57,548 bases of DNA from Planctomycetota bacterium (lineage in GTDB: Bacteria > Planctomycetota > MHYJ01 > JACPRB01), in contig DATLZA010000147.1 in the NCBI GenBank assembly GCA_035574235.1, positions 1-57,548 on the forward strand, given 5' to 3'. How positions within the stretch are numbered: the first letter of the stretch is position 1; every line of letters starts with the position of its first letter. A model generated the notes under the pieces. It did no database searches. It worked only from the letters and a program-made list of their open reading frames with translations, and had not been told where the DNA came from. Shown piece by piece: positions 338 through 57,548 of the stretch. The translations under genes were made by a program, and so were the position numbers.

Positions 338-486
338 CCGGCCCCGGGGAACGGCCCCGGCTTTATTTCTGGGGGGATTCGGCGGGACACGAAATCGTGG
401 CCGTTTACCCGTGCACGTCCTCTGAGGCCGCCGGGCCGGGGCCGGCGTGAGAATCCGCCGGAATCCGACCCCTCCCCCGGCGACGC

Positions 487-1215
487 TCACGGCAGGGGGC
501 CGATCTCGATCCGGCGGAATTCGACCTCCGTGCCTTCGGCCTGAAGCGCGATTTTCCCCCGGTCCGTCGTGGCGTTGAACCCTTCGTTGACGAGGTCGCC
601 GTTCACCCAGACCTTCACCGTCCGGTCCCGGGCCTCGATGACCATCGTGTTCCACTCGCCGATGGGCTTCTCGGAGTTGTCCGTCAGGTTCAGAATCCGC
701 CGGGCGTCGTTGGGCCCGCCGCCGTACTTCTGGCCCTCCTTGCGGGGGCGGCGCTTCTCCATGTCCGGAACTTCGATATTCTCCTGGATGCACCAGAAGT
801 CCCCCGCGTTCCCGCTCATCATCTGCACCTCGATCGACTGGGGGAACATCTTCCCGAGCGCCCGCGGCGTCGAGGAGTGGATGAGCACGCCGCAGTTGCC
901 CGCCTTCTTCGGGAACCGGTACTCGATCTCCAACCGGTAGTTCCGGAAGGCCGAGGTCGTCATGAGGTGTCCCCGCGGCTCGCCGAGACTCACGAGCATC
1001 CCGTCCCGCACGACGAAGGGATCCGGGGCCGAAGGATTCTGGTCCTTGGCCGGAACGTCCATCGTCCACCCCGAAAGGTCCCTGCCGTTGAAGAGCGACG
1101 CTTTCCGCGACGGCACCACGATCCCGTCCGGACCGGCCACGCAAAGGCCCCCTTGCGCTCCCGCCGCGCACGCCCCGAGCAGCCCGACCGCAACGATCAG
1201 TCCCATCCGCTTCAT
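487..1215 (-). CDS. DUF1080 (3-keto-disaccharide hydrolase-like) exported protein
   Basis: A 242-residue protein with a hydrophobic N-terminus ending in a lipobox-like LLGAC, so probably a lipoprotein. The body has DUF1080 hallmarks: SLFNGRDLSGW near the start, a GVLIHSS core strand, PIGEWNTMVIEARD, and a closing strand FRRIEIGPLP. DUF1080 proteins are concanavalin-like beta-sandwiches very common in planctomycetes; some members hydrolyse 3-keto-glycosides. The ATG at 1215 has an AGGAGGGG ribosome site that overlaps the stop of the upstream FAD oxidoreductase, only 13 bases away, so it is the third gene of a minus-strand operon. An oxidoreductase next to a 3-keto-sugar hydrolase would fit sugar oxidation followed by cleavage, but this is inference. 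Confidence 0.85.
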   Translation of the reverse strand: MKRMGLIVAVGLLGACAAGAQGGLCVAGPDGIVVPSRKASLFNGRDLSGWTMDVPAKDQNPSAPDPFVVRDGMLVSLGEPRGHLMTTSAFRNYRLEIEYRFPKKAGNCGVLIHSSTPRALGKMFPQSIEVQMMSGNAGDFWCIQENIEVPDMEKRRPRKEGQKYGGGPNDARRILNLTDNSEKPIGEWNTMVIEARDRTVKVWVNGDLVNEGFNATTDRGKIALQAEGTEVEFRRIEIGPLP

Positions 1216-1228
1216 GGCCGTTCCCCTC

Positions 1229-3301
1229 CTAGCGTTCCAGCCACCGAACCGCGTCCACGATCACATAGCCGTCCGTCCCGGCGTTGGCGATTTCCACCGC
1301 CGCGCGGCCCCCCGCGAACTCGAACGTCCCCACCGGCGCGAAAAGCCCCTCCACCGGCGGAACCGCCCGCTGGTCGAGCGCCGCCTCCGCCCGGCCGCCC
1401 GCGTGCTCGATCGTCACCGCCACCCGCGAGGCCCGGTTGGGATGGGCCGTGTAGGCCACCTGCACCTCATAGCGGCCCGGGCGCGGAAGCTCCGCCTCGA
1501 ACCGCGCGCGCTTGGCGCCCTTTCCCGCGTTGCCGTCGTGCCGGTACCCCTCCCCCACGTACGGCTCCTGCGCGCGGCTCGGCGTCCAGTCCCCCACGAG
1601 CGTCGCCCGCGCGTCGTCCACGACGATCCCCCGGGGCTTCGGCGGGCCGTATTCGAGCACCTGCCCGTCCGCCCGGAGACGCTCCCGCAGCCGCGCATAC
1701 GGCAGATCCTGCACGGCGATCCCCCCCTCGATCGCCAGCGCCGCCGCCGTCGCCGCCGACTGGCCGAGAATCATGAACACCGGCTCCATCCGGATCGAGC
1801 CGTACGCGATGTGCGAACTCGACACGCAGACCGGGACCAGGAGATTTTCGCATTCCGCTTTCTTCGGCGTGAGCGCCCCGTACGCGATCTCGTACGGCCG
1901 CGGGCAAGGCACCCCGATGTCCCCCTCGTTCTGGACGTGCCCTTCGGGCGTCACGTACCGGCGCACGTTGTGGGAATCGATCGTGTAGGAGCCCATCCCC
2001 ACGGAGTCCGGCGTCTCCTTGCGGTCCAGACAATCGTGCTCGGTCATGACGTACGCGCCGATCATCCGCCGCGCCTCCCGCACGTAGATCTGGTGCGGCC
2101 AGCCCCCGTTGTCCGTGAACTCGTCCTTCGCCAGGCCCCAGCGGGATACCGCCTTCCGGACGTCCTCCGGCACCCGCGGGTCGTTGGCCATGAAGTACAT
2201 GAGCCCCTTCTGGTAGGTCTCGTGCTCCTTGAGAATCTCCCGGCGCCGCTCGTAGGACGCCTCGGGATAGTCGTAGTTCATCCCGATGTTGTCGGTGCTG
2301 AAGGGGCCATGGTTGTTGGTGTCGGTCTTTCGGTTCGGGATCGGATCGTACTTGTTGAAGAGTTCCCGCCATCCCGATTCGAACACCCGAAGCAGAAGCT
2401 CGTACTGCCGGGGATCGTACCCCTCGGGCTTGGGGAACGGAATCCGGTTTTCCGGGAGGTCCGTCAGGCACATCCGATAGCAGTACGCCTGCACCCGCCG
2501 GTCCCCTTCCCCCCGCACGCCCGGCGGATCGGGACTGATCCGCGGGAGAAGCCCGCTTTCCGGCTTTCCGGGAACGACGTACGGCGAAATCGGCTTCTTG
2601 AAGAAATGCGCGTGGTGGAGAACCCCCACCTGGTTGCCGTTCCAGGTCTCCCCGTAGACGGAATTGGCCTCGCGGCCCACGTGGTAGCTCACCCCCGCGG
2701 CGGCCATGAGGTCGCCTTCGTAGGTGGCGTCGATGAACATCCGGCCGCTCCAGAAGGCCCCGTCGAGCGTGCGGAACCCGACGATCCGCGCGCCCTCCTT
2801 CCGGACGCCTCCCGGCCCGCGGTCCAGCCACCGGTCACGGAAGACGGGAATCCCGTATTCCTTAACGTAGCCCTCGAAGATCGCTTCCGCGACGTGAGGC
2901 TCGAAGATCCACATGGTGCGGCGTTCGCCGTCGATGGCCGGTGTTCCCTGCCCCTTGTTGCCGTACTCCGAGGGCTTCTGCCACCTCCAGGCTTCCGGCT
3001 TCTGGTAATGCAGCCACACGCGATGGTAGAAGTCGCGCGCGAGACCTCCGATGACCGCCTTGTTGCCCGTGTCCGTGAAGCCCAGGCCGCCGCTCGAAAG
3101 CCCGCCCAGGTGCCTGTCCGGACAGACGATCGCGACCGATCGGCCCATCCGGCGCGCCTGGACGGCGGCGATCACGCCGGCCGAGGTTCCGCCGTAGACG
3201 ACGATGTCGTACGATCCCCCCTCCACGCCGCCGTTCGGCGCGGGAGCGCCCGCGCAGCCCGCCGAAAGAATCGCCGTCCAGAAGAAGGCGCCGCGCCGCA
3301 T
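1229..3301 (-). CDS. FAD-dependent oxidoreductase with golvesin/xanthan-lyase-like C-terminal domain
   Basis: A 690-residue protein. After an N-terminal export signal that looks like a lipoprotein signal (ILSAGC), residues from about 30 form a dinucleotide-binding fold (DIVVYGGTSAGVIAAVQA), followed by HLGGLSSGGLGFTD and the FIDATYEGDLMAAAGV segment typical of the FAD_oxidored family (PF12831) found in planctomycetes and Bacteroidetes. The last ~130 residues (RYEVQVAYTAHPNRAS to VIVDAVRWLER) resemble the golvesin/xanthan-lyase C-terminal beta-domain, probably carbohydrate-binding. ATG 3301 was chosen because it begins the signal peptide; upstream in-frame codons run into the neighbouring gene. 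It starts 4 bases after the stop of the repeat lipoprotein. Likely oxidises a sugar-like substrate in the envelope; the substrate is unknown. Confidence 0.82.
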   Translation of the reverse strand: MRRGAFFWTAILSAGCAGAPAPNGGVEGGSYDIVVYGGTSAGVIAAVQARRMGRSVAIVCPDRHLGGLSSGGLGFTDTGNKAVIGGLARDFYHRVWLHYQKPEAWRWQKPSEYGNKGQGTPAIDGERRTMWIFEPHVAEAIFEGYVKEYGIPVFRDRWLDRGPGGVRKEGARIVGFRTLDGAFWSGRMFIDATYEGDLMAAAGVSYHVGREANSVYGETWNGNQVGVLHHAHFFKKPISPYVVPGKPESGLLPRISPDPPGVRGEGDRRVQAYCYRMCLTDLPENRIPFPKPEGYDPRQYELLLRVFESGWRELFNKYDPIPNRKTDTNNHGPFSTDNIGMNYDYPEASYERRREILKEHETYQKGLMYFMANDPRVPEDVRKAVSRWGLAKDEFTDNGGWPHQIYVREARRMIGAYVMTEHDCLDRKETPDSVGMGSYTIDSHNVRRYVTPEGHVQNEGDIGVPCPRPYEIAYGALTPKKAECENLLVPVCVSSSHIAYGSIRMEPVFMILGQSAATAAALAIEGGIAVQDLPYARLRERLRADGQVLEYGPPKPRGIVVDDARATLVGDWTPSRAQEPYVGEGYRHDGNAGKGAKRARFEAELPRPGRYEVQVAYTAHPNRASRVAVTIEHAGGRAEAALDQRAVPPVEGLFAPVGTFEFAGGRAAVEIANAGTDGYVIVDAVRWLER

Positions 3302-39376: not shown

Positions 39377-40471
39377 TCATCGACCCACAATCCGACCCGT
39401 GTCGGCATCGACCCTGATTTCGCGCAGCCGGCCGGCATAGAGCACCCGGACCGCCGCGACGACCCGTCCCGCTTCGGACCCAAGCGACCCTTCGATCGCG
39501 CGGCCGGGCAGCTCGGCCAGCGCCCGCTCGATCGCCTCGCCGAGTCCCAGGCGCGCCGCCGGAGTCCGCCCCGCCTGCCCTTCCTCCTCCTCCTCGAGCC
39601 GCTCGCCGGTCCGGACGTCGAATTCGATCTCGAAAAGCCGGCCGTCGCGCAGCACCTCGACCGTGCACACCGCGCGCCCTTCATCGTCCTCGATCCGGGC
39701 CGCCCGCGCCGCGCCGCCCCGCTCCACCGCCCGCCCCACGAACGCCGCCAGCGGAAGCACCGCTCCCTCGAGAAGCTTCGCGGCGCGCGCGCCCGCCTCC
39801 GAAGGCGGCCCGAAAACCTCCGAGCGCCCCGGCGGCACCGCCTCCCGGTAGCCCCACGCCTCGACCCGCGCCGTCCCCGCCGCGACCGTCACCCCGAGCT
39901 CCGGCCGCTCCTCTCCCGGAAGAGGCCGCAACTCCACCTCGAACTCCGCGCCGGAAGCCTCCACCGCCCCCGCGGGCGTCGTCACCCGGAAGAACGCCCC
40001 GCCGGGAACCCGGAAGCGTCCGCGTCCCGCGGCCAGCTCGAAGCCGTCCGGCCGCCCCTGCCCGGCCGAGCCGGGCTCAAGCGTCGCCTCCGCGCCGCCC
40101 CGGAAGCGAAGCGCGAGCGGCGCCGCGCCGCGGGCCGCCACCCATCGGCCTTCGCGAACCTCCCCCGGGCGCCCCAGAAGATGCGCCACGCCCGCGATCG
40201 ATACGGCCAGAAGAATCCCGGCGGCGGCGATCTCGGCCCACCGGCGCCGGGGGCGCGCCGGCGGCGCCGACGTCGCGTCCGCGACCGCGCATCCCGACGC
40301 CTGCGCCCCGTAGAAGGCGTAAAGCCCGGCTTCCAGAAGCGCCGCCTCCACCAGAGCGCGGCCGCGCGACCGATCCGCGCGAACCGCCGCCGCCAGCTCG
40401 GAAAGCTCCGCCGCCGAGGCGTCGCCGTCCTGCCAGGCCCGGAGGAGATCTTCGAAGCGATCCGCGTCCAT
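39377..40471 (-). CDS. FecR-type anti-sigma protein with C-terminal PepSY-like domains
   Basis: A 364-residue membrane protein. The cytoplasmic N-terminus (FEDLLRAWQDGDASAAELSEL) resembles anti-sigma zinc-less sigma-binding regions; a single membrane helix spans residues 80-100; the periplasmic part starts with a FecR domain (LRFRGGAEATLEPGSAG, FRVTTPAGAVEASGAEFEVELR). Residues about 255-300 and 320-364 then form two PepSY-like units (AVCTVEVLRDGRLFEIEFDVRTGERLE and VRVLYAGRLREIRVDADTGRIVGR), an addition not seen in ordinary FecR. ATG 40471 has GGAGGAG 8 bases upstream. It follows the sigma factor within 2 bases and precedes a secreted PepSY protein, so a ligand-sensing system is likely. Confidence 0.82.
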   Translation of the reverse strand: MDADRFEDLLRAWQDGDASAAELSELAAAVRADRSRGRALVEAALLEAGLYAFYGAQASGCAVADATSAPPARPRRRWAEIAAAGILLAVSIAGVAHLLGRPGEVREGRWVAARGAAPLALRFRGGAEATLEPGSAGQGRPDGFELAAGRGRFRVPGGAFFRVTTPAGAVEASGAEFEVELRPLPGEERPELGVTVAAGTARVEAWGYREAVPPGRSEVFGPPSEAGARAAKLLEGAVLPLAAFVGRAVERGGAARAARIEDDEGRAVCTVEVLRDGRLFEIEFDVRTGERLEEEEEGQAGRTPAARLGLGEAIERALAELPGRAIEGSLGSEAGRVVAAVRVLYAGRLREIRVDADTGRIVGR

Positions 40472-40473
40472 CG

Positions 40474-41007
40474 TCACGGCTCCTCCCCCGGCCCGAGTTT
40501 CGCCTCAAGACACCGCCGGAGGTTCTGCCGGGCCTTCCAGAGGGTCACCTTGACCGACCCTTCGGTCCACCCGAGGGCGCCCGCGATCCGCCGCACCGGG
40601 AGGCGGTCGCGATACCGCTGCTCGACCAGACGCCGCTGGGCCGGGGGCAGTCCTTCCAGACATTCCGCCAGGCGCTCCTGCCGGCGCCGCATCCCCTCCG
40701 GATCCGGAGCGTGTTCCTGGAAGGCCTGCGCGACCGCCTCGTCCAGCGCCTCCGAACCCTCGACCCGGCGCACGCGCGAAGAGCGGCGGAAATAGCCGGC
40801 CACGCGGCGGCGCGCCAGCTCGAACGCCCACGGGAGGAACCGCTCGACCCCGACGCCCTTGCGGTCCTCCTCGATGATCGCCAGGCCGACTTCCTGAAAG
40901 ATCTCCTCGGCGGCCTCGCGGTCCCGCGCCAGGGCGAGGATGAAGCCGAAAAGAACGTCCCGGTTCTCCAGGAACGGCCTCACGAGTCCCGCCGGAGCGT
41001 TTTCCAT
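40474..41007 (-). CDS. ECF sigma factor paired with FecR-PepSY anti-sigma protein
   Basis: A 177-residue ECF sigma factor: region 2 RDVLFGFILALARDREAAEEIFQEVGLAII, region 4 LPPAQRRLVEQRYRDRLPVRRIAGALGWTEGSVKVTLWKARQNLRRCL. The short length resembles FecI/ECF group members and planctomycete relatives of the Rhodopirellula sigma family. The ATG 41007 begins the operon sigma - anti-sigma - PepSY on the minus strand; the opposite strand carries a Cys-rich peptide and an outer-membrane protein starting 86 bases away, which could be target genes. The exact promoter motif recognised is not apparent. Confidence 0.9.
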   Translation of the reverse strand: MENAPAGLVRPFLENRDVLFGFILALARDREAAEEIFQEVGLAIIEEDRKGVGVERFLPWAFELARRRVAGYFRRSSRVRRVEGSEALDEAVAQAFQEHAPDPEGMRRRQERLAECLEGLPPAQRRLVEQRYRDRLPVRRIAGALGWTEGSVKVTLWKARQNLRRCLEAKLGPGEEP

Positions 41008-52024: not shown

Positions 52025-53383
52025 GTGAATTTGGCCGCCGCCGTCGCCGCCCTTTTCGCGCTTGCTCCTCAGGAGACCGACTCCGAACGCCTCAAGCGCC
52101 TTGAAGAACAGGTCCGGCGCCAGCAGGAGGAAATCGAAAAGCTCAAGGCCGCCTCCCCTCCCTTCACCGCCAGCCTCACGGAGGGGCTCCGCTTCCGGAC
52201 GCCCGACGGCTCCGTGGATCTGCAGCTCGGCGGACGGTTCCAGCAACACCTCCGCGTCCTCCTCGACCGCCCCGAGGGATCCCCGCGCACCCAGCCGGAT
52301 ACCTTCTATGTCCGCGCCGCCCGACTGAAGATGAGCGGAACCTTTTTCTCCGATTACGGCTTCCTGGTGGAAGGCGATTTTCCGTCTTCCTCCACCGGGC
52401 CGACCCCGACCCTCCAGGGGGCCTATGTGGAGTGGAAGAAGCTCCGGGAATTCCGCCTCCAGGTGGGCCAGTTCAAGGTTCCCATCAGCCAGGAACGCCT
52501 GCGCTCCCGCCTCTTCAGCGATTTCGTGGAGGATTCCGTCCTCACGCGGTTCGTCCCCGGATACGACCTGGGGATTCTGGCCTACGGACAGCTCGCCGGC
52601 GGCGCGGCCGGGTATCAGGCCGCCGTCGTCCACGGCCGAAGCCACCTCGACAACGCCGGCCGCTCCCGCCACGACGACAACGACGAAAAGGAATTCGCCG
52701 CGCGCGTCACCCTCTCCCCCTGGGCCCCGGACAAGGAGGCGTTCTTCCTCAAGGGACTCCGCGTGGGCCTGGCCGGAACCGTCACCGACGTGGACGATGT
52801 GACGATCAGCGGCACGGGGGTGACGGCATTCGACCTTTCGACGCCCGAACTCGGCGTCCTCTTCTTCGATCCCGCGGTTTCCTCCGGAACCCTGGCGCTC
52901 GACGGCCGCCGGACGCGCCTCGGCGCGGAGCTCTCCTGGGCCGTGGGCCCCGCCTGCCTGCGCGCCGAGATCCTCGCGCGGCGGGACGAAATGGTCAATA
53001 CCGGCGTCCGAGAGGACATTCCCATCCGCGCCTGGTCCGCCACGCTGACCTGGATCCTGACGGGCGAGGAGAAGAACCCGGAATCCCGTATCGTGCCCGC
53101 TCACCCCCTCGGGGAGAACGGCGGATGGGGCGCGCTCGAGGTGGCGGCGCGCCTGGCCGGCGCCGAAATCGACGACCGCATCGAAAACCTCGGCGTCCTC
53201 GTCGCCGGCCATTCCCTCAAGGTCCGCAGCGCCACGGTCGGCCTGAACTGGTGGCCCGCCCGCAACCTCCGCCTCTCCGCCGACGCCGTCCGCGAGAAGT
53301 TCGGAGACGACCTCGACATGGGCGCCGGCCGCACCGAGGACGCCTTCACCGGCTTCCTCGCACGCTTTCAGATCGATTTTTGA
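52025..53383 (+). CDS. OprP/OprO-like outer-membrane porin
   Basis: A 452-residue outer-membrane barrel. After a signal (LAAAVAALFALAPQ), a coiled-coil stretch (RLKRLEEQVRRQQEEIEKLKAA) precedes many strands ending in the aromatic residue of FLARFQIDF. Motifs EGLRFRTPDGSVDLQLGGRFQ, FYVRAARLKMSGTFFSDYGFLVEGDF and LREFRLQVGQFKVPISQERL are typical of phosphate-selective porins O and P. The coiled coil could make trimers as in OprM-like porins. GTG 52025 has AGGGAGGG 7 bases upstream. It directly follows the molybdenum enzyme (23 bases) and probably supplies its anionic substrate across the outer membrane. Confidence 0.9.
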   Translation: MNLAAAVAALFALAPQETDSERLKRLEEQVRRQQEEIEKLKAASPPFTASLTEGLRFRTPDGSVDLQLGGRFQQHLRVLLDRPEGSPRTQPDTFYVRAARLKMSGTFFSDYGFLVEGDFPSSSTGPTPTLQGAYVEWKKLREFRLQVGQFKVPISQERLRSRLFSDFVEDSVLTRFVPGYDLGILAYGQLAGGAAGYQAAVVHGRSHLDNAGRSRHDDNDEKEFAARVTLSPWAPDKEAFFLKGLRVGLAGTVTDVDDVTISGTGVTAFDLSTPELGVLFFDPAVSSGTLALDGRRTRLGAELSWAVGPACLRAEILARRDEMVNTGVREDIPIRAWSATLTWILTGEEKNPESRIVPAHPLGENGGWGALEVAARLAGAEIDDRIENLGVLVAGHSLKVRSATVGLNWWPARNLRLSADAVREKFGDDLDMGAGRTEDAFTGFLARFQIDF

Positions 53384-55272
53384 GTCCGCCTGCGCCGGAG
53401 CCCGGCGACGAGCCCTCCGAGAGCGCCCAGGACCAGAATCGCCTCAAGTCCCGTCAGGCCGCACCCCCCGCCTCCGCCTCCCCCGCCGTCCTCCCCGCCG
53501 CCTCCTCCACCGGAACCGCCGCCTCCCGTTCCCCCCGTTCCGCCTCCTCCCCCCGTCCCGCCCGTGGAGGATCCGAAACCCGGATACGTCACCGAACTCA
53601 CGAAGGTCACCTTCTCCGTGTTGAGCCCGGAATAATCATCCTTGAGGACGCCCCCGGTATCGTGCGATTCCGGCGTCCAGCACCACCAGGTCCACGAAAG
53701 CCCGTTCTCCTGGATATAGGCGCGCAGCTTCTCCGCCCAGAGACGCTCGCGGGTGCGCTTGTCCTCGCTGATGTCCGTCCGGCTCGAGGGAACCGTCAAA
53801 AACGATCCCCATTCGCCGACCCACACCGGAGCGATGTTCTCCTTGTGAAGAAATCCCCACTGGCGGTCCCAGTGCGCCGGGAGATTGTCCGGAAATCCGG
53901 CGGAGTATTGGTGGAACGGCTGATCCCAGACGATCGGACCGTAATCATGAACCTCGTAGACCAGCCGGTTCGCCACGCTCAGCGTCAAGGGATGATCGCG
54001 AACCCCGAGGTGAACGGCCCCCCACCAGCCCGCCTCGCCGTTGTACTCATGCATTCCCTGAACGCAGATGAGCAGATTGGGATGGATCCTGAGAATCTCC
54101 TCCGCGCACCGCTTGGCGGCCCAGCGCCAGTTCACGGACGGATTGACATTGTCGGCCTCCCACGTGGCCGACCCGTGCACCTCGTTGAACAGATCCACCC
54201 CCACGACCGTCGGATTCGTCCGGTACCGCGTCACGAGCGCCTTCCAGTTCTCGATCCACTGCGATTCGGGACGGCTCGAGGAATACCAGAGTCCGGACTC
54301 CGGCGCGCTTCCGCCGTGAACCCGATGATAATCCAGGATGATCCGAATGCCTCTCTGGCCCGCGGCGCTCACCAGACGATCCAGAATCTGTCCGCAGGTT
54401 TTGTTCAGCAAATCCGCGTTCACCGTGGAGTCGATCGCCTCCTGGCGCGGATAGGTCGTGTCCAGCGGAAAGATGTCCCCCGAGAACGGAAGCCGGATGA
54501 GATTGAATCCCGCGTTCTTCATCTCATCGAGATGCCGCTCGATCGTGTATCCCGTCCCACCCCACAGGCCGTGCGGGATGCGGTTCTCGCTGTCCATCCC
54601 GTGCCAGTTGACCCCCGACCAGCGAATCTCCCGGCCCGCTTCGTCGAGAACCTTGTTGCCCGACGTCCTCCACCACCCGGACCCCGTCCCGCCTCCGGGA
54701 TCCCCTCCTCCCCCGCTCCCGGACAGACTGAATCGAATCCAGTTCAGGTTGAAGGGCCCTCCGTCGAACACCACCCGCAGAACCTGCACGCCCGACGAAA
54801 GCGAAACTCCCGTCGCCGTCACCGTCGTCCACGTCTGCCACCCCCCGGTTTGAGGGGCCGAGACGGTCGCGGTCAGAGCGACGCCATCCTTTTCCAGATG
54901 AAGCGCCCCGCCCGACATTTCGGAGGCCACGCGGAACTCAACCGTGTACGTGCCCGCCTCGCGGACGTCGACCGTGTACTCGAGCCACTCCCCGGCCGCA
55001 ATCCATCCCACGTTGTATCCGCCCCCCGTATCGGCCGTCGCCTCGATGTCCACCTGCTCCGAAGGGCGATACTGCCCTCCGTTGTTCGTGGAATCGCCGT
55101 CCTGATAGGCGACCCCCGGGCCGCCCGTGTCGAAATCCTCCGCCTGAAGCGTTCCCGGGACCGCGACGGCGGTTCCCCCGTAGGGACCCTGCGACCCGGC
55201 CTGAGCCGCTCCCATGACCGCCACGAGCGCTCCGAACAAAGCCGCCCGCTTCAGAATCACGACACCCCTCAT
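53368..55272 (-). CDS. CBM6-GH5 cellulase with C-terminal sorting tail
   Basis: A 634-residue secreted enzyme. After a signal peptide (LFGALVAVMGAAQAGS), residues about 30-185 are a CBM6 domain (LQAEDFDTGGPGVAYQDGD, GGYNVGWIAAGEWLEYTVDV), which binds cellulose or xylan chains. A Gly-rich linker leads to a GH5 catalytic domain with the acid/base Glu in VDLFNEVHG and nucleophile Glu in VWVGEWGSF. The end is a Gly-rich stretch, then Cys-Gly, a hydrophobic helix (LTGLEAILVLGALGGLVAGL) and RRRR, like MYXO-CTERM or Synerg-CTERM sorting signals. ATG 55272 overlaps the stop of the GH48 gene and has GGAGGAGGG upstream. Endoglucanase activity is expected. Confidence 0.9.
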   Translation of the reverse strand: MRGVVILKRAALFGALVAVMGAAQAGSQGPYGGTAVAVPGTLQAEDFDTGGPGVAYQDGDSTNNGGQYRPSEQVDIEATADTGGGYNVGWIAAGEWLEYTVDVREAGTYTVEFRVASEMSGGALHLEKDGVALTATVSAPQTGGWQTWTTVTATGVSLSSGVQVLRVVFDGGPFNLNWIRFSLSGSGGGGDPGGGTGSGWWRTSGNKVLDEAGREIRWSGVNWHGMDSENRIPHGLWGGTGYTIERHLDEMKNAGFNLIRLPFSGDIFPLDTTYPRQEAIDSTVNADLLNKTCGQILDRLVSAAGQRGIRIILDYHRVHGGSAPESGLWYSSSRPESQWIENWKALVTRYRTNPTVVGVDLFNEVHGSATWEADNVNPSVNWRWAAKRCAEEILRIHPNLLICVQGMHEYNGEAGWWGAVHLGVRDHPLTLSVANRLVYEVHDYGPIVWDQPFHQYSAGFPDNLPAHWDRQWGFLHKENIAPVWVGEWGSFLTVPSSRTDISEDKRTRERLWAEKLRAYIQENGLSWTWWCWTPESHDTGGVLKDDYSGLNTEKVTFVSSVTYPGFGSSTGGTGGGGGTGGTGGGGSGGGGGGEDGGGGGGGGCGLTGLEAILVLGALGGLVAGLRRRRTQKSI

Positions 55273-57548
55273 GGTCCCTCCTCCGCGGCCTCGGCCAGCG
55301 CCAAGGCCACTTCCACCTGGGCCCAGAACCGGTGATACCGGAATACGGGCGCCTCGCCCGCCGCCCGCGCCCGCTCCAACCGCCCGAACTCCGGGTCCGC
55401 CCGATAGGCCGAGCGCAGATCCAGGAACGTCACCCCCGCACGGATGTCCTCCCCCCGCGGCGTCCGCCCCCGCCAGCCTTCGGGAAGCGGCACGCGCTCC
55501 CCGAACCGCGCGTAATCCGGCCGGGCCTCGGGCGCCGCCACGCCCGGCCTGTCCCGATGAAGCGTCCAGATCCGCTCCAGAAGCTCCCGGCCGAGCGCCC
55601 GCGAGCGGGAATCCGGGTGGACCAGCAGCGTCCGCGCCAGAGCGCCGGCCACCCCCACGTCCTGCGTCACCGCCGTCACCGCCGCCCGCAGCGAGGCGTT
55701 CGATCCCGGCCGCGCGGCGTTCCAGGGGTCGGGCCGGCCGCTCCAGCGCAGCGTCGCCGGAATCGCGTAGCCTCCCTCCGGCGTCAGCCGCACCTCCCGG
55801 CGGGCCCACGCGGCCCAGCGGTCCGCGACCTCGGCCGCGCGCGCGTCCTTCGAAAGCGCCGCGTACCGGACCAGACGATCCATCGCCCAGACCTGCCACC
55901 CGAACCACTCGTTGCTCGGGGGATCGAGAAAAACCGGATGCGCGTCGTACGCCAGGCCGTGGAAGCCCGAAGGATCCGCGCCGGGCCCGATCCGCGCGCC
56001 GCCGGCGATCGCCCCGTCGGCCGACTGGAGCCAGCGATAGAACTCCACCTGACGCGAAAGGCTCCGCGACCAGTCGCGCGCGGATCCCGGAGCCGGCGAG
56101 CGGAACGCGGGATCCGACGCCAGCGCCCAGGCGGCCAGCGGGTTCTGGTAGCCTACGTGGGCCGCCGAGGCCCCCGTCCGCCAGGCCCACGCGCCCGCCC
56201 CCCGCTCGATCGAGCCGCCCCACGCGTACGTCCATCCCAGAAGCCCGTGCGGCTCGGTCCGGAAATGCTTCTCCCGGAGCGCGTACCGGAGCGCGTCCCC
56301 CATCCGCACGGCCCGCGCCAGAGGAAGCACGCGCGCGGGATCCCGCCCCTGCTCCCGCACGGCGCGCGCCGCCTCGAAGGCGGCCTGGACCGCCCGCGCG
56401 TCGGCGTCCGGAGCGCACACGTAGCGCCACTGACGGGCGTAGGACGGCTCGCGGATGAAAAGATCGAGATACCCGTTCGGCCCGCCGCTTCCGAAGTCCT
56501 CCCACGACGGGTGCGGAATCGTCTCCCAGACCGACTCGTGCGGCCCCCGCTGGAAGGTGTTGAGAAACCCCGCCCGGCGCGCCCGGTCGCCCCTCCGGCC
56601 GAAACCGTACCAGTTGTCCGCATCGACCAGCCAGTGCATTCCGTGGAGATCCGCCGTGCCGTACGCGCGCCGCAGCTCCTCCGCCAGATCGTCCCGGCCC
56701 GCGGGCGCCGACGGATCGAGCGCCACGGGATACTCCTCCGGACGGTCCCGCTCCGGCGCGGGCACCGAAGGACGCGCGGGATCGTAGGCCGCGTTCGTCG
56801 GCTGGTCGTCCGGGCCGGGAATGAGAAACTCCTCCATGCGGGCCCAGGCGCGGTTGAAGGGCGCCCAGTCGCCCGTGATCCGGCCGTACGCGGCCTCCAG
56901 CCACAGCCAGTAACTCAAGGTCTCGCTCGTCGTCAGATGCCCGTAGTCCGGAGCGTCCACGAGAAGGGTTTCGACCGCGTGATAAGGCAGCCCGTCCGGA
57001 CTGAAGTAGCCGTTGGCCGGATCGTGAAGCGCCTGCCGGAGCTCGAGGAACCGCTTCTCGTAAAGCTCGCGGAGGGACAGCACGACGGGGGGGGTCTCCG
57101 TGGAGGCCACGGCGCGTCGCCCCGCGGTCACTTCGACCGCCGCGCCGGTCCGGGCCCCCTGGACCTGCACGCGTCCTTCCCGGACGTCCACGCGGGTGCG
57201 TCCCGGCTCCACCGACACGGCGAACCGCGTCCCGATCACCCGGACTTCCGCGTGCGGTGTGGCGACCGCCATCGGACGACCGGGCGTCTGCGGGGCGACC
57301 TCCGCCTCCAGGGCCCCCCGCCGGAGAACGCAACGCTTCGCCTCCCCGAGCGCGAGTTCCGCGTCCTCCGAGAGCGCCAGCCGGGTCGGCTCCCCCTTCC
57401 AGATCACCGTCCCGCCGCCGCGGACGACGTCGCCCGGCCAAAGCGGGGTTCCCGCGCGCGCCGCCGCGGGCGCCTCTCCGGGACGCTCCAGAAGCGCCCC
57501 CTCGCGGGCCTCGGCCAGGACCATCTCCGAAACCGGCTCCGTCGCGCG
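55269..57548 (-). CDS. FecR-GH48 cellulase fusion, 5' end outside window
   Basis: At least 759 residues, with the frame open to the right edge. The visible N-terminal 150 residues are a FecR domain (LRRGALEAEVAPQTPGRP, VATPHAEVRVIGTRFAVSV, GRTRVDVREGRVQVQGA), preceded by RATEPVSE in frame, so further N-terminal sequence (a membrane helix or anti-sigma region) is likely beyond the edge. The rest is a GH48 cellulase: YHAVETLLVDAPDYGHLTTSE with its acid Glu, YWLWLEAAYGRITGDWAPFN, GMHWLVDADNWYGFG, TFQRGPHESVWETIPHPSW and GGPNGYLDLF, then the family's barrel. GH48 enzymes attack cellulose processively from the reducing end. Overlaps the GH5 gene by 4 bases. Confidence 0.92.
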   Translation of the reverse strand, partial: RATEPVSEMVLAEAREGALLERPGEAPAAARAGTPLWPGDVVRGGGTVIWKGEPTRLALSEDAELALGEAKRCVLRRGALEAEVAPQTPGRPMAVATPHAEVRVIGTRFAVSVEPGRTRVDVREGRVQVQGARTGAAVEVTAGRRAVASTETPPVVLSLRELYEKRFLELRQALHDPANGYFSPDGLPYHAVETLLVDAPDYGHLTTSETLSYWLWLEAAYGRITGDWAPFNRAWARMEEFLIPGPDDQPTNAAYDPARPSVPAPERDRPEEYPVALDPSAPAGRDDLAEELRRAYGTADLHGMHWLVDADNWYGFGRRGDRARRAGFLNTFQRGPHESVWETIPHPSWEDFGSGGPNGYLDLFIREPSYARQWRYVCAPDADARAVQAAFEAARAVREQGRDPARVLPLARAVRMGDALRYALREKHFRTEPHGLLGWTYAWGGSIERGAGAWAWRTGASAAHVGYQNPLAAWALASDPAFRSPAPGSARDWSRSLSRQVEFYRWLQSADGAIAGGARIGPGADPSGFHGLAYDAHPVFLDPPSNEWFGWQVWAMDRLVRYAALSKDARAAEVADRWAAWARREVRLTPEGGYAIPATLRWSGRPDPWNAARPGSNASLRAAVTAVTQDVGVAGALARTLLVHPDSRSRALGRELLERIWTLHRDRPGVAAPEARPDYARFGERVPLPEGWRGRTPRGEDIRAGVTFLDLRSAYRADPEFGRLERARAAGEAPVFRYHRFWAQVEVALALAEAAEEGP

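Follow-up and report, generated by a model that had tools for sequence, protein, structure and literature searches.

The stretch of DNA analysed here (the window, 57,548 nt) is a whole contig (C147, 1-57548) of a planctomycete genome of 4.06 Mb in 203 contigs (G000), which means that position 57548 is an assembly end. From there, a single stop-free frame runs on the minus strand to 55269, with 759 codons up to its stop and its 5' end cut off by the contig end (Table 1). Pfam recognises two domains in it: FecR (PF04773) at residues 55-128 of the visible protein, with 38.5 bits against a cut-off of 24, and Glyco_hydro_48 (PF02011) at residues 163-754, with 775 bits against a cut-off of 25. An earlier note on this DNA had proposed a FecR domain fused to a GH48 cellulase in one open frame, and both the profile search and the uninterrupted frame bear this out. 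The closest solved structures by sequence are GH48 cellulases (E down to 8e-203); the catalytic domain, the only GH48 of its genome, is about 50% identical to actinobacterial GH48s. Some 34 residues separate the FecR match from GH48, and Pfam finds no STN match in the visible protein.

Table 1. Coordinates of the genes, domains and active-site codons discussed in the text; positions refer to the window unless another contig is named.
Feature	Position	Strand	Remark
GH5 cellulase, secreted, with CBM6 and Gly-rich, sorting-signal-like C-terminus	53368..55272	minus	follows in the operon; 4-nt overlap of its start codon with the GH48 stop
Anti-sigma/FecR-GH48 gene, 3' part	55269..57548	minus	5' end lost at contig end; PF04773 and PF02011
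GH48 catalytic domain (PF02011), complete	55287..57062	minus	profile 1-615 of 619
First Asp codon of the invariant APDAD motif	56406..56408	minus	from alignment
Glu codon equivalent to catalytic Glu55 of Cel48F	56922..56924	minus	conserved; window residue 209
Codon at the Cel48F Glu44 position	56955..56957	minus	Asp in window and G001; Glu in other GH48s compared
FecR domain (PF04773)	57165..57386	minus	Pfam; predicted fold of the homologous region is that of solved FecR-type anti-sigma regulators
Juxtamembrane periplasmic stretch, residues 1-54 of the visible part	57387..57548	minus	in the alignment, directly follows the TM helix of the full-length homologue in G001
ECF sigma-TM-GH48 protein	L082 (G808:C27) 373-3081	minus	902-aa single ORF

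Other FecR-GH48 proteins, to which the earlier note had pointed as a check, do exist: one in the Planctomycetota bacterium isolate nzgw515 (G001), which belongs to the same family as the window's genome, and one on a contig that its record assigns to a Prosthecobacter debontii MAG (Verrucomicrobiota; L018). The G001 protein is full-length (824 aa) and consists of an anti-sigma domain, a transmembrane (TM) helix, FecR, just below the PF04773 cut-off at 20.1 bits, and GH48; the L018 protein (914 aa) has the same architecture with FecR above cut-off. Signal peptide, CBM and dockerin are all absent from the FecR-GH48 proteins. In G001, a sigma region 4 lies upstream and a GH5 cellulase gene downstream, each with a 4-nt overlap, while the gene row of L018 comprises a complete sigma factor (193 aa, 4-nt overlap), the antisigma-FecR-GH48 gene, a GH5 with CBM2 and a GH6. 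The operon order is common to all: ECF sigma factor, then anti-sigma domain-TM-FecR-GH48, then GH5 cellulase, the frames overlapping in the planctomycetes. The immediate neighbours that we examined include no gene for a TonB receptor or transducer. In the tree, the catalytic domains of the three FecR-GH48 proteins group together with 95/92 support. As to the GH5 product of the window, its C-terminus (53368-53460, minus strand) comprises a Gly-rich linker, Cys-Gly-Leu-Thr-Gly-Leu-Glu, a hydrophobic stretch and an Arg cluster, which gives it the look of a surface-sorting signal with a weak database match only (13.5 bits); the G001 GH5 has a similar tail.

When the start of the G001 protein is used as a query against the window's genome, there is one strong match, located at the extreme end of contig C103 (E 4e-17, 54% identity). 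The minus strand of C103 encodes a 175-aa ECF sigma factor (L054:257-784(-)), whose end overlaps by 17 nt the start of an anti-sigma-like protein; the first 91 codons of the latter are present, and the contig stops precisely where its frame has entered a hydrophobic helix, RRLRWAAAAAVLLGVGAAAG. The window frame, aligned to G001, picks up immediately after the TM helix. There is no overlap between the ends of C103 and C147, the gap falling inside or just behind this helix; that these contigs carry the two parts of one gene is inferred from the intact genes of G001 and L018. An ATG at 57524 was considered as the true start and rejected, as homologues begin about 100 residues earlier and the missing part would be that on C103. 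The C103 sigma factor scores 135.8 bits to TIGR02989 (Sig-70_gvs1; cut-off 124.55); the L018 sigma factor is just below this cut-off at 117.1 and that of G001 is truncated. The partner is an ECF sigma factor of the TIGR02989 type, with regions 2 and 4 present, TIGR02989 being the Rhodopirellula/Verrucomicrobium ECF family. Further upstream on C103 (L054, 884-5331, minus strand) lie genes for a RuBisCO-like protein, a DUF1537-type sugar-acid kinase, a phosphogluconate-dehydrogenase-like protein and a GFO/IDH oxidoreductase, a set that resembles sugar-acid (apionate-type) catabolism and adjoins the cellulase operon. That the sigma gene belongs to this upstream operon is less likely: a terminator-like site lies between them (L054:855-842), a weak sign with 1 found where 0.5 were expected.

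The N-terminal domain matches no named or curated anti-sigma family in Pfam and, searched alone, no sequence in the PDB. An HMM trained on nine N-termini, all taken from other FecR proteins that are paired with a sigma gene in the window's genome, scores the C103 N-terminus at 44.1 bits, G001 at 31.2 and L018 weakly at 15.5, the best of 900 shuffles reaching 11.5. Residues 1-250 of G001 are modelled (mean pLDDT 87) with a fold of three helices, one TM helix and a beta domain. Compared with the PDB, this model matches two proteins at E below 0.001 and no others: BDI_1681, a putative anti-sigma factor (4m0h, 4m0n), and PupR, through its periplasmic CCSSD (6ovk). The full-length model is poor (pLDDT 62). 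Hydropathy and the model (helix 76-96 in G001) agree on a single TM helix, the one cut by the contig gap in the window's genome. A membrane helix and an anti-sigma-like N-terminus thus precede FecR, as seen in C103 and the G001 model, and an ECF sigma gene overlaps in both planctomycetes and in the verrucomicrobium L018: the upstream apparatus that the earlier note had envisaged is in place. There is no RsgI match in Pfam, the partner being ECF and not sigma-I.

Besides this one, the window's genome has 18 FecR proteins; 13 are untruncated, and for 10 of them the gene immediately upstream encodes a homologue of the C103 ECF sigma factor. PA14, CBM96, WD40 and LamG-type domains occur on other FecR proteins of the genome and, since RsgI3 of Clostridium thermocellum also carries PA14, GH48 looks like one sensor within a set of FecR-borne sensor domains. 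Four other members of the family and genome G392 contributed 23 FecR proteins, none of them with a GH family attached to FecR; zf-HC2, HEAT, TPR, PepSY and CBM96 are found instead. The window holds a second sigma/anti-sigma-like pair (39377-40504 and 40498-40986, both on the minus strand), in which the gene after that of the ECF sigma factor encodes a TM protein that matches FecR weakly and ends in a PepSY domain. Elsewhere in the genome, L046 (G000:C6, 340-2595, plus strand) joins a Ser/Thr kinase domain, FecR and a LamG-like lectin domain, and FecR here reads as the outer juxtamembrane part of a putative receptor kinase. Of the 19 FecR genes, six run off a contig (C147, C202, C5, C143, C99, C162), often within a Pro- or Ala-rich stretch; the anti-sigma half of genes of this kind is therefore prone to be missing from draft genomes.

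Counting above-cut-off matches only, GH48 was found in 2 of 392 Planctomycetota genomes and in 2 Verrucomicrobiota genomes across three overlapping draws (388, 213 and 384 genomes), and all four genes are tied to sigma signalling. The fourth, from a genome of the same order as that of L018 (G808), is fused directly to an ECF sigma factor: a single 902-aa ORF contains sigma-70 regions 2 and 4, a strong hydrophobic helix and GH48 (991 bits), FecR being absent. By its domains, this protein may be a sigma factor that is held in the membrane and bears a cellulase domain. Its topology is uncertain, owing to another hydrophobic stretch of borderline strength, and its GH48 is not firmly placed with the FecR group in the tree.

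Both E44 and E55 have been called catalytic in Cel48F (PMC10317168). The offset to Cel48F numbering was read from the match start and falls exactly on the published numbers 44 and 55. Glu55 and the first Asp of the APDAD motif, which is presumably Asp230 of Cel48F, are kept in all four proteins (window, G001, L018 and G808). The Glu44 position is Asp in the window and G001 and Glu in L018, G808 and the other aligned GH48s; several GH48 loops are also shortened in the two planctomycetes. These two features lead to graded expectations: activity is likely in the verrucomicrobial proteins and possible, perhaps reduced, in that of the window. In G001 (L004, 2404-4878, minus strand), several loops of most GH48s are missing (e.g. 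GRRN/GLVN, SGQP/GAGL, WKG/PLKP), all in frame, which could be either natural trimming or a consequence of the low-coverage assembly.

Sigma/anti-sigma systems with a glycosidase as sensor are already known in clostridia. In C. thermocellum, the GH5 domain of Rsi24C has lost its acid/base residue and binds crystalline cellulose (PMC3526467). As in the present operons, its sigma gene adjoins that of an anti-sigma factor whose TM segment is combined with an outward-facing GH domain, but the domain is a GH5 exposed on the surface of a Gram-positive cell and lacking the acid/base, whereas here it is a GH48 with Glu55 kept, on a FecR chassis. RsgI6 is comparable in that its GH domain is the biomass sensor of an anti-sigma factor driving glycanase genes; this GH10 has very low activity and retains binding (PMC4711584). 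It differs in its RsgI_N chassis, its weak GH10 and its partner, sigma-I and not ECF; sigma-I has sigma2 and no sigma4 (PMC6056542). FecR and PupR share with the window's protein the anti-sigma domain, the single TM helix, the FecR-type beta domain (CJM) and the cognate ECF sigma factor. Unlike it, they end in STN and sense via a TonB-dependent transducer, where GH48 here directly follows FecR. In PupR, the FecR-type juxtamembrane subdomain and the STN after it are both needed to bind the transducer, intramembrane proteolysis coming next (PMC7186176), and E. coli FecR is processed stepwise, the final step being performed by RseP (PMC8144685). Free or cellulosomal GH48s (Cel48F, CelS, the GH48 of CelA) have a full-length domain as here; the present one comes without signal peptide, CBM or dockerin and is tied to a sigma system. 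The G808 chain, for its part, is a sigma factor with an extension of its own. Pinto and co-workers are said to have described, in 2019, ECF sigma factors with regulatory C-terminal extensions, and we know of no such extension that is a GH48.

Taken together, the domain order and the operons argue with good confidence that the protein is a membrane-bound, carbohydrate-sensing anti-sigma factor, which would use its GH48 cellulase domain as sensor and control its own cellulase operon. Of the two options in the earlier note, a cell-anchored cellulase that senses substrate and a FecR fold used as a scaffold, the former is the better supported, as the anti-sigma apparatus is complete. With the anchor in the inner membrane, GH48 is expected on the periplasmic side and not outside the cell. 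In our model, the N-terminal cytoplasmic domain would keep the sigma factor inactive, while FecR and GH48 would be periplasmic, the GH48 tunnel threading or hydrolysing cellulose chains or cellodextrins; the sensed ligand would be cellulose or a cello-oligosaccharide. Tunnel occupancy could change the FecR juxtamembrane domain and expose the protein to stepwise proteolysis, perhaps at site 1 first and then by an RseP-type protease, as with E. coli FecR. The freed sigma factor, alone or with an anti-sigma fragment, would then transcribe the operon including GH5, and probably other cellulase genes. GH48 would occupy the place of the STN subdomain by which FecR and PupR contact their transducer and, with no transducer gene nearby, sensing would therefore be direct. 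A periplasmic GH48 would need soluble cellodextrins or polymer uptake to meet its substrate; planctomycetes can take polysaccharide into the periplasm, where such an encounter could occur.

The protein could instead be mainly a working cellulase held in the membrane and acting on cellodextrins or cellulose, its anti-sigma half merely coupling the amount of enzyme to need; for example, product or folding stress in the envelope could trigger a cleavage that also releases the enzyme. We consider this unlikely, though the best of the rival readings. Glu55 and the APDAD aspartate are conserved throughout, and the sole GH48 of the genome beside a GH5 (plus a GH6 in L018) makes up a classical cellulase set. 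Yet the usual attributes of a secreted cellulase (signal peptide, CBM, dockerin) are missing, Glu44 is replaced and loops are shortened in the two planctomycetes, and the related receptor domains RsgI6-GH10 and Rsi24C-GH5 are weak or dead enzymes. That FecR is merely a structural spacer in a system that no longer signals is improbable: FecR does occur in proteins of the window's genome with no obvious sigma partner (the L046 kinase and L047), but an intact sigma gene with overlapping frames, its product above the family cut-off in C103, and the conservation of both the anti-sigma domain and the TM helix across three genomes of two phyla speak against decay.

Signalling through a TonB-dependent transducer as in FecA-FecR, with GH48 as an add-on, would fit the resemblance of the FecR fold to PupR, but the short stretch between FecR and GH48 leaves no room for an STN subdomain, none is detected, and the examined neighbours include no receptor gene; we rate this reading slightly below even the spacer. 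A chimeric FecR-GH48 join created by assembly or binning is barely conceivable. The gene does sit at the contig end of a draft assembly and the G001 contig has a coverage of only ~2.4, yet the same fusion and gene order recur in three separate assemblies from two phyla, with a coherent, well-supported clade of catalytic domains, and we reject a chimera on the agreement of the three genomes. The carbohydrate-sensing anti-sigma factor remains our preferred reading. A more doubtful extension of it is that, within the Planctomycetota-Verrucomicrobiota group, GH48 was recruited as a still-active receptor by two domain routes (antisigma-TM-FecR-GH48 and sigma-TM-GH48), the engagement of a chain by a processive cellulase being the signal that would free the ECF sigma factor, with no TonB transducer involved.

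GH48 is regarded as a hallmark secreted cellulase, and annotators take its presence as evidence of cellulose degradation; every GH48 that we found in the surveyed Planctomycetota and Verrucomicrobiota is part of a signalling protein. Our literature search returned no paper mentioning FecR and GH48 together. To our knowledge, three aspects are new: (i), GH48 as a sensor family; (ii), the FecR chassis; and (iii), the directly fused sigma-TM-GH48 chain. Planctomycete and verrucomicrobial cells with this protein probably use a cellulase as a cellulose sensor, which suggests a specific means by which these widespread degraders of polysaccharides could detect cellulose. The finding connects FecR, a signalling chassis of the iron type, with the sensing of plant biomass, in parallel to the clostridial RsgI sensors and by an apparently independent route, and it makes testable the idea that one enzyme may serve as both catalyst and receptor.
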